NCBI GenBank assembly: GCA_947174415.1
Contig: CAMWIW010000003.1
Location: 1 to 64,000, forward strand
DNA: 64,000 bases
DNA from: an uncultured Clostridia bacterium
Lineage (GTDB): Bacteria; Bacillota; Clostridia; Christensenellales; Borkfalkiaceae
Direction: 5' to 3'
The translations under genes were made by a program, and so were the position numbers. The notes under the pieces were generated by a model, which was given only the letters and a program-made list of their open reading frames with translations, was not told the DNA's origin and did no database searches. Of this stretch, positions 17,588 to 23,023 are shown piece by piece. Numbering within the stretch: the stretch's first letter is position 1; every line of letters begins with the position of its first letter.

Positions 17588-18235
17588 ATGATTATTGAAT
17601 ATCTTGGTCATTCGTGTTTCAAACTAACGGAAAGTACGGGGACTTCTATCGTATGCGACCCGTATTCCGAAGATACGGTGGGTTATGAAATGCCCGAAGT
17701 TGAGGCTGACGTGGTAACCGTATCTCATCATCACAGCGACCACGATCTTATAGCGAACGTCAGCGGTAAGCCCGTTATTATAGATAAGGAAAGCAATTAC
17801 GAATTTGACGGAGTTGAAATCAATTCTATAAAGTCTTTCCACGACGCAAGCCGCGGTAAAAAACGTGGCGAAAACGTAATTTTCAAGTTCAGAATGGACG
17901 GAATAGACGTCTGCCACCTCGGCGATTTGGGCGAAAAGTGCTCTTCCGACCTTATAGAAACTCTTTTGCCCGTAAACGTTCTGTTAATACCAGTAGGCGG
18001 CACTTACACGATTGATGCCGAAATGGCTAAGGAATACGTGGACAGAATTATGCCCGATATCGTTATCCCCATGCACTACCGCACTAAGGACTGTAAGTTG
18101 GATATTGACAAGGTTGACGAATTTTTAAATCTTTTCGACGGGGAAATTATCGACGAAGTCGAAGGGAACGAGTTGGAGCTTTCCAGAACGGATTTGGGCG
18201 GAGAAACGAAAATCGTGGTTTTAAGGAGAACCTGA
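17588..18235 (+). CDS. Metal-dependent hydrolase (metallo-beta-lactamase superfamily, UlaG-like)
   Basis: LGHSCFKL...VTVSHHHSDHDLI intact HxHxDH-type motif; IPMHYRTK. Confidence 0.88.
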   Translation: MIIEYLGHSCFKLTESTGTSIVCDPYSEDTVGYEMPEVEADVVTVSHHHSDHDLIANVSGKPVIIDKESNYEFDGVEINSIKSFHDASRGKKRGENVIFKFRMDGIDVCHLGDLGEKCSSDLIETLLPVNVLLIPVGGTYTIDAEMAKEYVDRIMPDIVIPMHYRTKDCKLDIDKVDEFLNLFDGEIIDEVEGNELELSRTDLGGETKIVVLRRT

Positions 18236-19536
18236 TGGTAAGCGAGGAAATGCTCAAAGACGTTGAACTGCGTCTTGACAAAATGACAATCTACGAGGTT
18301 CGGCAAATCGCGCGTGAAGTAAAAGCCCACGCAACCAGCGGGCAAAAAGGCACTATCATTGAAGCGATTTTGGATATCGCGCGCGGAGAGGCGGAGTTCG
18401 CCCCCGTGTCAAAACGCGGCGCTCCCCCTAAATCGGACAAGTACGACGAAAAGTTGGTTTCCGATATTTTGGGTTTAAGGGAATATTTTTCCGCATTAAA
18501 ACACGGCGAGAAAAGCGACCCTACGATGAGAGTGAACGATTCCGGATACGAATGCGGTCTGCTTTCGGAAAAGGAATACCGCGGTTACCTTGACTTTGAC
18601 GGACAGAACTGTTTTCTTCACGCCGAAGAAAAAGTTTTTATTTCCGAGTTTTTCGTAACGAGATTTTCTTTACGCATCGGCGATTTTATTGTTTGCAAGG
18701 GAAGAAAAAAGAACTTAGCCGACCTTGTTGGCGTATGTAAAATTCTGACCGTAAACGGCTTACCGGCAGAAGAAAGCGATTTCAGACGCGACTTTTCTTC
18801 ACTCACGTATTTGTATCCGTCTATGCGCGTCCGTCTTTCTTGCGGATTAGACGCGGCATTGAGAATGATTGACCTTTTCGCACCGGTGGCGCTCGGTCAA
18901 AGAGGGGTGATTTCCGCCCCTGCAAACAGCGGCAAAACCACACTAATAAAATTGATTGCCCACGGAATATGTGCCAATTACCGCGATTTTGAGGTAATAA
19001 TTCTAACCCTTGGCGCACGCCCCGAAGAGATAACCGAATTTTCAAAATCAAGCGATAAGGTAACTTATTTTTACACCTCTTTCGATAAGTCCGACGAAGA
19101 GAATTTATCCCGTGCAACTCTTGCATTCGAGTACGCTAAACGGCTTGTCGAGCTTCATAAAAACGCAATCGTTCTCGTGGACGGATTATATGAAAATATT
19201 CCCACAGAACAAATCAAGAATTTTCTTTCTTGTGCAATTAACGCCGAGGAGGGCGGTTCTTTAACCGTGCTTGCCTCAATGCCGCAAGAGTTTAATTATG
19301 CGGGCGTTGCTAATATGGTCGTTAACCTTTCGCCCGTTCTTGCGGCGCAAAGGATTTATCCCGCAATCGATATTTTAAAGACTTATTCGGGCAGGGAAGA
19401 AGTGCTTTTAAACGAAGAGGAAATAAAGCTGTCGCATAAGCTTCGCGCAAAGCTTGCGCAAGGTTCGGCAGCCGAAGAAATAATTAAGCTTTTCAAAGAG
19501 ACAGAAAACAACGAAGAGCTTGCAAAACTTATATAA
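18235..19536 (+). CDS. Divergent Rho-like hexameric ATPase
   Basis: MTIYEVRQIAREVKA Rho-N-like start; GQRGVISAPANSGKTTLIKLIAHGI Walker A; AINAEEGGSLTVLASM and AAQRIYPAIDILKTYSGREEVLL align with Rho C-terminal motifs; canonical Q-/R-loops absent. Confidence 0.8.
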   Translation: MVSEEMLKDVELRLDKMTIYEVRQIAREVKAHATSGQKGTIIEAILDIARGEAEFAPVSKRGAPPKSDKYDEKLVSDILGLREYFSALKHGEKSDPTMRVNDSGYECGLLSEKEYRGYLDFDGQNCFLHAEEKVFISEFFVTRFSLRIGDFIVCKGRKKNLADLVGVCKILTVNGLPAEESDFRRDFSSLTYLYPSMRVRLSCGLDAALRMIDLFAPVALGQRGVISAPANSGKTTLIKLIAHGICANYRDFEVIILTLGARPEEITEFSKSSDKVTYFYTSFDKSDEENLSRATLAFEYAKRLVELHKNAIVLVDGLYENIPTEQIKNFLSCAINAEEGGSLTVLASMPQEFNYAGVANMVVNLSPVLAAQRIYPAIDILKTYSGREEVLLNEEEIKLSHKLRAKLAQGSAAEEIIKLFKETENNEELAKLI

Positions 19537-19537
19537 A

Positions 19538-20818
19538 ATGGCTGATAAAAATTTATTTACCGACAGAGTAAAGATTACAATTAAATCGGGCGACGGCGGG
19601 GACGGAATGAATTCGTTCAAGTCCTTTAAGGGCAAACCCGCTTGCGGACCGGACGGCGGCGACGGCGGAAACGGCGGAAACGTCTATATTCAGGCGGACG
19701 GCAGCGTTAGCGACTTGCTGTCCTTTCGTTATACGAGCAAATATTTTGCCGGCGACGGTGAGAGAGGGGGCTCGAATAAGTGTTTCGGCAAGTTTGGGCA
19801 AGACGTGGTTATCAAAGTCCCCTTAGGCACGGTCGTAAAGGACTTTGAAAGCGGAGCTGTCATAGCCGATATGTTTGAGGACGGAGAAAAAAAACTCATT
19901 CAGGAGGGCGGAAGAGGGGGTAAAGGTAACGTTCGGTTTACGACTTCGCGCCGCCATGCCCCTAATTTTGCACAGAAAGGTGAAAAAACCGAGCCGCACG
20001 TTCTTGTATTAGAGCTAAAAGTGATAGCCGATGTGGGCATAATAGGCTTTCCTAACGTTGGCAAGTCCACCCTTCTATCGAAAATATCGGCGGCAAAACC
20101 CAAAATTGCAAATTATCACTTTACGACCCTTTCGCCGAATTTAGGCGTCGTTAAATATTACGACAATTCTTTCGTTGCTGCGGACATTCCAGGGCTTATC
20201 GAGGGCGCTGCGGACGGCGCAGGGCTTGGGCACGATTTTCTGCGCCATATCGAAAGAACGCGCATGCTCGTTCACGTCATAGATATTTCGGGAACTGAAG
20301 GGCGCGACCCCGTTGAAGATTTTAAAAAGATTAATCTTGAATTAAAGGGTTATTCGGAAAAATTAGCGGCCTTGCCGCAGATAATCGCGCTTAATAAATG
20401 CGACGTTTTCGGCGCGGAAGAGAACGCAAAAATCTTTAAGAAAAAGTACGGTAAAAAGTATAAAATCTGCCCGATAACCGCAGTCAGCGGCGAGGGTACG
20501 GAAGAGCTTATTTCAAGCATATTCGGCACTCTATCGTCGTTGCCGGCCGTTTCCCGTATGGAAATTGACGAAGATTTCACGTACCGCAAAAGCGGCAATC
20601 TGGGCTTCGAAATCTATTTGGACGGAGACGTCTATGTGGTCGTCGGCGACCTTGTGGATATGCTTTGCAGAAACGTGGTTTTAAACGACCCCGACTCAAT
20701 GGCGTACTTCCAAAAAATAATCCGCGAAAAGGGCGTAATTTCAAAACTGAAAGAAATGGGCATAAAGGAAAACGACACCGTTTCAATCGGCGACGTTGAA
20801 TTCGATTTTATACCTTAG
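19538..20818 (+). CDS. obgE: GTPase ObgE/CgtA
   Basis: FTDRVKITIKSGDGGDGMNSFKSFKG; GFPNVGKSTLLSKISAAKPKIANYHFTTLSPNLGVV; start at MADKNLF. Confidence 0.97.
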   Translation: MADKNLFTDRVKITIKSGDGGDGMNSFKSFKGKPACGPDGGDGGNGGNVYIQADGSVSDLLSFRYTSKYFAGDGERGGSNKCFGKFGQDVVIKVPLGTVVKDFESGAVIADMFEDGEKKLIQEGGRGGKGNVRFTTSRRHAPNFAQKGEKTEPHVLVLELKVIADVGIIGFPNVGKSTLLSKISAAKPKIANYHFTTLSPNLGVVKYYDNSFVAADIPGLIEGAADGAGLGHDFLRHIERTRMLVHVIDISGTEGRDPVEDFKKINLELKGYSEKLAALPQIIALNKCDVFGAEENAKIFKKKYGKKYKICPITAVSGEGTEELISSIFGTLSSLPAVSRMEIDEDFTYRKSGNLGFEIYLDGDVYVVVGDLVDMLCRNVVLNDPDSMAYFQKIIREKGVISKLKEMGIKENDTVSIGDVEFDFIP

Positions 20819-20826
20819 GAGAAATG

Positions 20827-21123
20827 ATGTTAACTTCAAAACAGCGTAGTAAATTAAAAAGCCTTGCCGCAAACATTACCCCGATTGGGCAAGTCGGCAA
20901 GGAAGGGATAGGGGAAAATATGCTTGCAAGCTTTTCCGACTGTCTTGAAAAGCGCGAGCTTATAAAAATCAATATTTTGGAAAATGCAGACGGTGAACCG
21001 CAAGAGATCGGCCGAGAGCTCGCAGCAAAGCTTTCTGCAGAGTGCGTAATCGTAATAGGCAGAAAGGCGGTATTATACCGCCCCTCGAAACGTAAAGATA
21101 TTGAGCATATTAAACTCAATTAA
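20827..21123 (+). CDS. yhbY: YhbY family RNA-binding protein (CRM domain)
   Basis: LTSKQRSKLKSLAANITPIGQVGKEGI...VIVIGRKAVLYRPS. Confidence 0.92.
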   Translation: MLTSKQRSKLKSLAANITPIGQVGKEGIGENMLASFSDCLEKRELIKINILENADGEPQEIGRELAAKLSAECVIVIGRKAVLYRPSKRKDIEHIKLN

Positions 21124-21856
21124 ACACCAAAGCCACAGCAGAAAGAATAATCATTATTCCGCCGCTCACAATATAGTATATGGGAAAAAAGGTGAAGTAG
21201 CTTAGTGCAAGAAGCGCAGCGCCCGACCAAAACAGCGGCGCGCAAAGTTTTCTTGAAAAGCGCAGCTTAATACGCTTAAATAAATTCGGCTTTTTTGCTT
21301 CTTCGTAAACGTACTTTTCAGGCAAAAGCTCGTTCTTTTTTAAAGAAGAAAACACTTCGTCTATTCCTGCAATATCTATTGAAAAGTTGCTTGCGAGTAT
21401 TGCTGCTTCGGCTGAACATTTAACGCAGTAAATTTTCTTTTCGCCATCGCATTTAAACTTGATTATGCGCGCGACGTCGTCCTCTGTCAACGGCTGCATT
21501 TTAAAGTTGAAAAAATACGATACACCCCCACATATGACCCGTTTTCCGCGTATTTTGGCGTCATCTCCCAAACATTTTTTAAAAAGAGTTTTCACGTCTT
21601 CGTCGCGGGATAAAGACAGATGCAATGCAAGAAGTTTCTTTTGCTTTTCGTCTTTGGATAAAAGTAGGGATTTACTTTGTTTTCCGCTTATGTAAAGATA
21701 CGCAAGAGTGCCGAAAAGCACCCCGCCCAATACACCGAAGACAAGCCCTATAACCGCGCTTTTGGTATAGAACCTGATAGCCGTAAAAAACAGTAGAAAC
21801 GCGCATACGGCAGCAAACAAAGTATCTAAAATCAAGGGTAAATTCAATCTTCTCAT
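21116..21856 (-). CDS. Hypothetical membrane protein
   Basis: Four hydrophobic segments with soluble middle domain; start at MRRLNLPL. Confidence 0.65.
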   Translation of the reverse strand: MRRLNLPLILDTLFAAVCAFLLFFTAIRFYTKSAVIGLVFGVLGGVLFGTLAYLYISGKQSKSLLLSKDEKQKKLLALHLSLSRDEDVKTLFKKCLGDDAKIRGKRVICGGVSYFFNFKMQPLTEDDVARIIKFKCDGEKKIYCVKCSAEAAILASNFSIDIAGIDEVFSSLKKNELLPEKYVYEEAKKPNLFKRIKLRFSRKLCAPLFWSGAALLALSYFTFFPIYYIVSGGIMIILSAVALVFN

Positions 21857-21892
21857 ATTCAAATTATTGCCGCGATTTTTAGTAAATAAACT

Positions 21893-23023
21893 ATGAAAAT
21901 AGCACTTTACGGCGGGGCTTTCAATCCCGTTCATTTGGAACATCTTAATATTGTTCTTGCCGCCAAAGAGCGGTTGGGGCTTGACAAAATTATAGTTATT
22001 CCCACCAATATTTCACCCCACAAGAAAGGCGAGCTTTGCGCCAGAGGTAAAGACAGGCTTAAGATGTGCCGGCTTGCCTTTGAAGGCGTCCAAGGAGTTG
22101 AGGTTTCCGACGTGGAATTGAAGCGCGGCGGCGTAAGCTATTCTTACGTAACCTGCCGCCATTTCAAGAAAATTTACAGCGAGGACGAGCTTTACTTTAT
22201 TATCGGCGCGGATATGCTTAAATCGTTCGAATTCTGGAAAGAACCCGAAGAAATATTAAAGTGCGCAACCCTTGCAGTTTGCGCCCGCGAGAATGAGGAA
22301 GAGCTCACTGCGTTAATAAAGAAGTTTCAAAAGCACTTTAAAAAGGATATCGTTAATTTCGGTTACGTCGGAAAACCCGTGAGCTCAACCCGTGTAAGAA
22401 CTCTTGCCGCTTTGGGCGAGGATACGGCAGGATTAGTTTCCGAAAGCGTGCGACTCTATATCCGCAAACACAGAATTTACGAAATCCCCGAGATTTCAGG
22501 CGTAAGAAAATATCTTACTGACTCGCGTTGGCAACATACCGTGCGTGTAGCCGTTCTTGTAGCGGAGTACAGGCGTGCAGCAGGCGTTTACGAATTTGAC
22601 GCAATCACCGCGGCGGCTCTGCACGACTGCGCAAAATATATTGCGCCTGACGCGGCCGAGCTTAAAAAATTCGTTCCCCCCAAGGGCGTGCCTGAGCCCG
22701 TTATGCATCAATACAGCGGAGCGTTCGTTGCGGAGCATACGTTCGGTGTTAAGGACGAGGTGATTTTGAACGCAATCCGCTACCACACGAGCGGCAGAGA
22801 GAATATGTCAAACCTTGAAAAACTGATATTTCTTGCCGATTTGTTGGAAGAAGGCAGGGATTTCGAAGGTGCTGACGCGCTAAGGGCGAAGTTAAAGGAC
22901 GGGTTAGACTGTTGTCTTATTGCAGCTCTCGAACACCAGATTAATTATTTGAAATCTACGGGCGAGCCCGTTTATCCGCTGACGGAACGGGCTTATAAAT
23001 ATCTGAAAGAGGTAATTTTATGA
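21893..23023 (+). CDS. nadD: Bifunctional nicotinate-nucleotide adenylyltransferase / YqeK-like HD hydrolase
   Basis: YGGAFNPVHLEHLNIV (NadD) plus C-terminal HTVRVAVLVAEY...AALHDCAKYI HD domain (YqeK) in one ORF. Confidence 0.92.
   Translation: MKIALYGGAFNPVHLEHLNIVLAAKERLGLDKIIVIPTNISPHKKGELCARGKDRLKMCRLAFEGVQGVEVSDVELKRGGVSYSYVTCRHFKKIYSEDELYFIIGADMLKSFEFWKEPEEILKCATLAVCARENEEELTALIKKFQKHFKKDIVNFGYVGKPVSSTRVRTLAALGEDTAGLVSESVRLYIRKHRIYEIPEISGVRKYLTDSRWQHTVRVAVLVAEYRRAAGVYEFDAITAAALHDCAKYIAPDAAELKKFVPPKGVPEPVMHQYSGAFVAEHTFGVKDEVILNAIRYHTSGRENMSNLEKLIFLADLLEEGRDFEGADALRAKLKDGLDCCLIAALEHQINYLKSTGEPVYPLTERAYKYLKEVIL

Follow-up and report, generated by a model that had tools for sequence, protein, structure and literature searches.

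The rho locus

The window analysed here, a stretch of 64,000 nucleotides from an uncultured member of the gut-type Clostridia, carries a gene for Rho, a ring-shaped motor by which most bacteria bring transcription to a stop. The open reading frame starts with ATG and lies between genes for a metallo-beta-lactamase-fold (MBL) hydrolase and ObgE. As initially described, spacing is tight on both sides: the MBL gene and rho meet in a TGATG overlap, and the obgE ATG lies one base past the rho stop codon. The features of the locus, all on the forward strand, are as follows.

17588..18235 (+), MBL-fold hydrolase (PF13483), its gene paired with rho throughout most of the family
18235..19536 (+), orthologue of rho encoding 433 aa, predicted to be motor-dead (open reading frame, Rho profiles, alignment, AF2 fold)
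18235..18480 (+), residues 1-82, the N-terminal domain with RhoN/SAP-like helices, whose conservation outlasts motor loss
18415..18435 (+), RGAPPKS motif, residues 61-67, near-invariant within the degenerate clade
18568..18768 (+), residues 112-178, eroded primary RNA-binding domain of the cold-shock type (Pfam Rho_RNA_bind, 22.7 bits, below the cut-off of 27)
18769..19533 (+), RecA-like ATPase domain, residues 179-433 (Pfam ATP-synt_ab; AF2 and Foldseek)
18916..18942 (+), Walker A, APANSGKTT, residues 228-236, intact
19015..19017 (+), site of the catalytic Glu (E. coli E211), Ala261 here
19180..19182 (+), Walker B Asp (E. coli D265), retained as Asp316
19195..19221 (+), 9 codons where E. coli Rho 270-299 has 30, the Q-loop being deleted
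19273..19308 (+), 12 codons where E. coli Rho 317-338 has 22, the R-loop being deleted and K326 absent
19390..19392 (+), Arg finger site (E. coli R366), Gly386 by alignment
19538..20818 (+), obgE, downstream gene of the rho operon in this genus

The MBL hydrolase (PF13483) adjoins both canonical and degenerate rho genes across most of the family (loci including L153-L207). Further downstream, yhbY (+) and a 275-aa ORF (-) at 20824-21943 converge with an 8-base overlap, so that no intrinsic terminator would fit between them.

The encoded protein is recognizably Rho. It scored 198 bits against NF006886 (cut-off 315) and 186 bits against TIGR00767 (cut-off 509), missing both NCBIfam cut-offs, the second of which is also missed by the canonical Rhos of the same genus. 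These matches fell into two stretches, interrupted at the Q-loop. The best PDB matches by sequence were Rho chains (E 1e-42), the AF2 model had a pLDDT of 87, and all of its 50 best Foldseek matches were Rho; by these three lines of evidence the protein has the Rho fold, a cold-shock domain plus a RecA-like domain. The Rho-type scaffold proposed in the initial annotation is thus borne out, with GQRGVISAPANSGKTT at residues 221-236 and both EEGGSLTVLA and QRIYPAID found in the protein. Pfam Rho_N matched 17 of 38 relatives, the window protein itself falling below threshold.

The missing motor parts

The residues of the motor were followed in an alignment of 140 sequences with E. coli Rho as the ruler, the sequence used for it agreeing in kind with those parts of Rho that appear in the PDB alignments. 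The segment equivalent to E. coli 270-299, which contains the Q-loop (278-290), is reduced from 30 to 9 residues, a shortening already noticed on first inspection. The segment equivalent to 317-338 is reduced from 22 to 12, with the R-loop, residues 322-326 in E. coli Rho (PMC1950744), deleted and K326 gone. The first reading had the R-loop replaced, and the loop is indeed missing, but the motif quoted for it, EEFKGTGNMELHLSR, sits just past 322-326 and is itself missing or altered. The initial annotation had not mentioned two further losses. The catalytic E211 is Ala261, DERPEE having become GARPEE, and the Arg finger R366 aligns with Gly386, in a region where the alignment is loose and Arg387 is nearby. 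In addition R269 is replaced by Glu. Walker A and the Walker B Asp are kept. At the primary RNA site the Phe at F64 is kept, R66 is His and Y80 is Phe; in the window's clade these residues are found in 34/41, 21/41 and 32/41 members, respectively.

Across that clade E211 persists in 6 of 41 members, K326 in 3 and R366 in none. Since canonical Rho was defined by E211, Q-loop length and K326, five positions outside this definition, K184, D265, R269, R353 and R366, provide a control. All five are present in every one of the 61 canonical relatives (34/34 in the genus, 27/27 in other genera), which argues that their losses in the degenerate proteins are not alignment noise. The counts in the window's clade are 33/41, 34/41, 18/41, 25/41 and 0/41, and in degenerate Rhos of other genera these residues are mostly rarer still. 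Walker A and B are intact in about 80% of the clade; about 20% lack the Walker lysine, and the ability to bind ATP is thus not a general requirement. In L146, a relative whose Walker motif is gone, the ATPase domain is still predicted with a confident fold, and it is therefore probably retained as structure.

The Q-loop, the R-loop and the missing residues are assigned to catalysis and RNA translocation (PMC8828861; PMC1950744). In E. coli Rho the single change E211A abolishes hydrolysis while ATP binding and oligomerization are retained (PMC4499133), and the fact that the window Rho carries this same change counts for a dead motor. Taken at the level of sequence, the motor of the window Rho is almost certainly dead. 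The suspicion that it is no normal ATP-driven terminator therefore stands, such a role appearing very unlikely, while the suggestion of an altered nucleic-acid motor is itself improbable because the catalytic Glu and the Arg finger have gone too.

Orthology, repeated loss and selection

No second Rho was found in the host genome assembly (1.59 Mb, 95.7% complete), nor in any degenerate-Rho genome among the 94 searched in the genus and 81 sampled from the family. One genome, G118, has two canonical rho loci (L084 and L085) with matching gene neighbourhoods, which probably reflects a bin that mixes two strains. The gene order of the genus, PGK-prephenate dehydrogenase-DUF1934-MBL-rho-obgE-yhbY-nadD-rsfS, is identical for canonical and degenerate members; outside the genus the MBL-rho pair mostly persists, and obgE is not downstream of degenerate rho. 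Judged by this gene order and the sole copy, the window rho is the positional orthologue of the genus's canonical rho, one and the same gene modified in situ. A paralogue or a horizontally transferred copy is ruled out by the identical gene order and by Rho divergence that tracks that of the neighbouring genes (Spearman 0.50 for degenerate and 0.60 for canonical members). The neofunctionalized duplicate that was first envisaged accordingly gives way to an orthologue in place. The separate clade consistently lacking both loops was found, but with no canonical Rho alongside it. Nor is this simply the one Rho of an ordinary terminating lineage: it is the only Rho, but the lineage appears motor-dead and has no known termination activity.

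A tree of the genus built on eight neighbouring proteins held 51 species with degenerate Rho, 33 with canonical Rho and 5 without rho. The canonical or degenerate label changes six times on it, at least three of these changes being forced by strongly supported branches, and degenerate members such as L102-L107 and L129 are placed among canonical sister species. Within the genus the motor has thus been lost at least three times, and probably about six. Other genera of the family are mixed in the same way by profile score, a distribution by which motor loss has arisen there again. In five species of the genus (L225, L226, L227, L229 and L230; genomes at least 92% complete) rho is cleanly deleted and the MBL gene stands directly beside obgE, so rho can be lost without harm to the operon and is dispensable at least there. 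These five are not nested in degenerate clades. In an order-level search many genomes of families f13, f28 (0.8-1.3 Mb genomes) and f32 were apparently without Rho, and low Rho scores in genus g21 of family f4 may mark another degenerate set.

Selection on the retained genes was gauged by the Nei-Gojobori omega, an approximate measure here as dS is often about 1 and close to saturation, which gave 0.10-0.18 for established degenerate pairs (0.13 for the window and L141), 0.2-0.45 for transitional pairs, and pooled values of 0.15 for the N-terminal domain and 0.175 for the ATPase domain. Every 0.1 neutral substitutions per site should bring about 6 stop-creating hits, yet with dS at about 1 almost every copy still has its full length. 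Contig-end fragments aside, the frame is broken in one degenerate rho only, L148 of genome G107, with ORFs of 267 and 198 aa, which is either an assembly error or a true pseudogene. Shine-Dalgarno matches of degenerate rho genes equal or exceed those of canonical members. Given the full-length frames, the low omega and the kept ribosome-binding sites, degenerate rho is evidently no pseudogene but a gene kept under purifying selection, and with its catalytic residues lost and the remainder constrained its product would qualify as a pseudoenzyme.

This constraint is unevenly spread. At about 70% neighbour identity, the N-terminal domain has an identity of 0.50 in canonical and 0.47 in degenerate members, against 0.69 and 0.33 for the RNA-binding domain and 0.71 and 0.33 for the ATPase domain. 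Where neighbours are 0.8-0.9 identical, the two groups differ more at the N-terminus (0.77 canonical, 0.57 degenerate), yet by far less than in the ATPase domain (0.84 and 0.45). Transitional species compared with canonical sisters at 84% neighbour identity have an N-terminus at 0.79 and an ATPase domain already at 0.56. Near-invariant N-terminal residues of the degenerate clade are I19, R23, R27, G62, P65, K66, S67 and D71; the counterpart of RGAPPK in other genera is RGRPxK or RGRKP, AT-hook-like by eye only.

A Rho with a probably dead motor

The constraint on the remainder, above all on the N-terminus, favours a role independent of the motor, and we consider it probable that a motor-dead Rho has been retained for such a role in its N-terminal part, most likely one of nucleic-acid binding. 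In this pathway an ancestral canonical Rho would have lost, in place, both the hydrolysis of ATP and the central channel that translocates RNA. The Rho-fold protein would have persisted, perhaps as an oligomer and probably binding ATP without hydrolysing it, with nucleic acid probably still held through the N-terminal RhoN/RGAPPK module, and instead of terminating as a motor it could then sit on transcripts, DNA or RNA polymerase as a static scaffold. Counting against this interpretation are the five relatives in which rho is absent, the lack of a Pfam Rho_N score for the window protein, the approximate nature of omega, and the evidence that ATP binding is not generally needed. Published structures show a contact between the N-terminal side of Rho and free polymerase, judged irrelevant to termination (PMC9908020); for the N-terminal role it is a lead only.

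The serious rival is slow decay, in which Rho was no longer needed, its motor was the first part to erode, and the gene, under weak residual constraint, is heading for loss. The raised omega of the transitional species is what such decay would produce, as are the clean deletions in five species of the genus, the families of the order that are largely without Rho, the fall of Rho identity to 36% where neighbours stay at 73%, and the broken frame in G107. We nevertheless regard it as rather unlikely, since a decaying gene should have gathered stops long before the divergence at which these copies are still nearly all full-length, the omega of the established lineages is far under 1 and lower than that of the transitional ones, N-terminal conservation is almost undiminished, and the rho-less species lie outside the degenerate clades.

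It could also be argued that other residues took over catalysis and the gripping of RNA, leaving a divergent but working terminator. The intact Walker A and B of the window Rho and of most of its clade would fit, and NusG is present with normal scores in nearly all degenerate species searched; it is slightly lower in rho-less species (133-145 against 158-169 bits; three of the five searched). An active terminator would also agree with the unshifted purine content. Gene purine bias has been tied to Rho activity in Bacilli (PMC13323073), and wobble purine did not differ between canonical and degenerate members (0.434 and 0.426, p 0.85) or between those of other genera (0.461 and 0.489, p 0.12). 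However, wobble purine is below 0.5 in most lineages even with a canonical Rho, and as the bias is weak throughout the family the comparison speaks neither for nor against a dead motor. With the catalytic Glu, the Arg finger, the Q-loop and the R-loop lost jointly, when in E. coli Rho the E211A change by itself is enough to stop hydrolysis, and with relatives that lack the Walker lysine retained likewise, a working motor is very improbable. Still harder to credit is that the frame is kept only for translational coupling, as a placeholder delivering ribosomes into the essential obgE. The upstream TGATG overlap and the one-base gap to the obgE ATG would suit it, but five species manage with MBL and obgE adjacent, degenerate rho in other genera is not followed by obgE, and coupling leaves the amino-acid conservation unexplained.

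If a motor-dead Rho has indeed been kept for a motor-independent role, it represents a third state of Rho, in place, motor-dead and still selected, reached several times in one genus beside canonical sisters. To our knowledge Rho has been either present and working or absent, and we found no report of a natural motor-dead Rho in the open-access literature. These proteins would form a natural separation-of-function series in which a motor-independent role becomes directly testable; that the only copy has lost its motor parts several times independently and is still kept under selection suggests a Rho job needing no motor. It is possible, and we raise it tentatively, that Rho generally carries a motor-independent N-terminal function and that in this lineage the protein has been pared back to it more than once, in which case the natural motor-dead Rhos would lay bare a second, hidden role of this textbook terminator. 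An annotation of rho as present need not mean Rho-dependent termination, and in the degenerate-Rho genomes the loss of such termination can be compared against close relatives.

Among known systems, the window Rho shares fold, domain order and Walker A/B with the canonical Rhos of E. coli, T. maritima, T. thermophilus and M. tuberculosis, and occupies the operon position of its own canonical relatives; it differs from the former in lacking the catalytic Glu, the Arg finger, the Q-loop and the R-loop, and in scoring far under the curated cut-offs. The weak-motor Rho of M. tuberculosis likewise has an altered secondary RNA site, with Thr for K326. The laboratory mutants E. coli Rho E211A and MtbRho E386A have lost the same catalytic Glu, keeping ATP binding and the oligomer with hydrolysis abolished (PMC4499133), whereas the window type is natural, fixed in many species, and also without both RNA loops and the Arg finger. 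NF041509 (paralog_Rho2) has the Rho ATPase core in common with the window Rho but is named as a paralogue and a short form; membership is excluded by a score of 170 against a cut-off of 628, the retained N-terminus and the single copy. Outright losers of rho, such as cyanobacteria (PMC13289151) and many Bacilli (PMC13323073), also live without the Rho motor; there the gene is gone, while in the lineage of the window the protein is retained.
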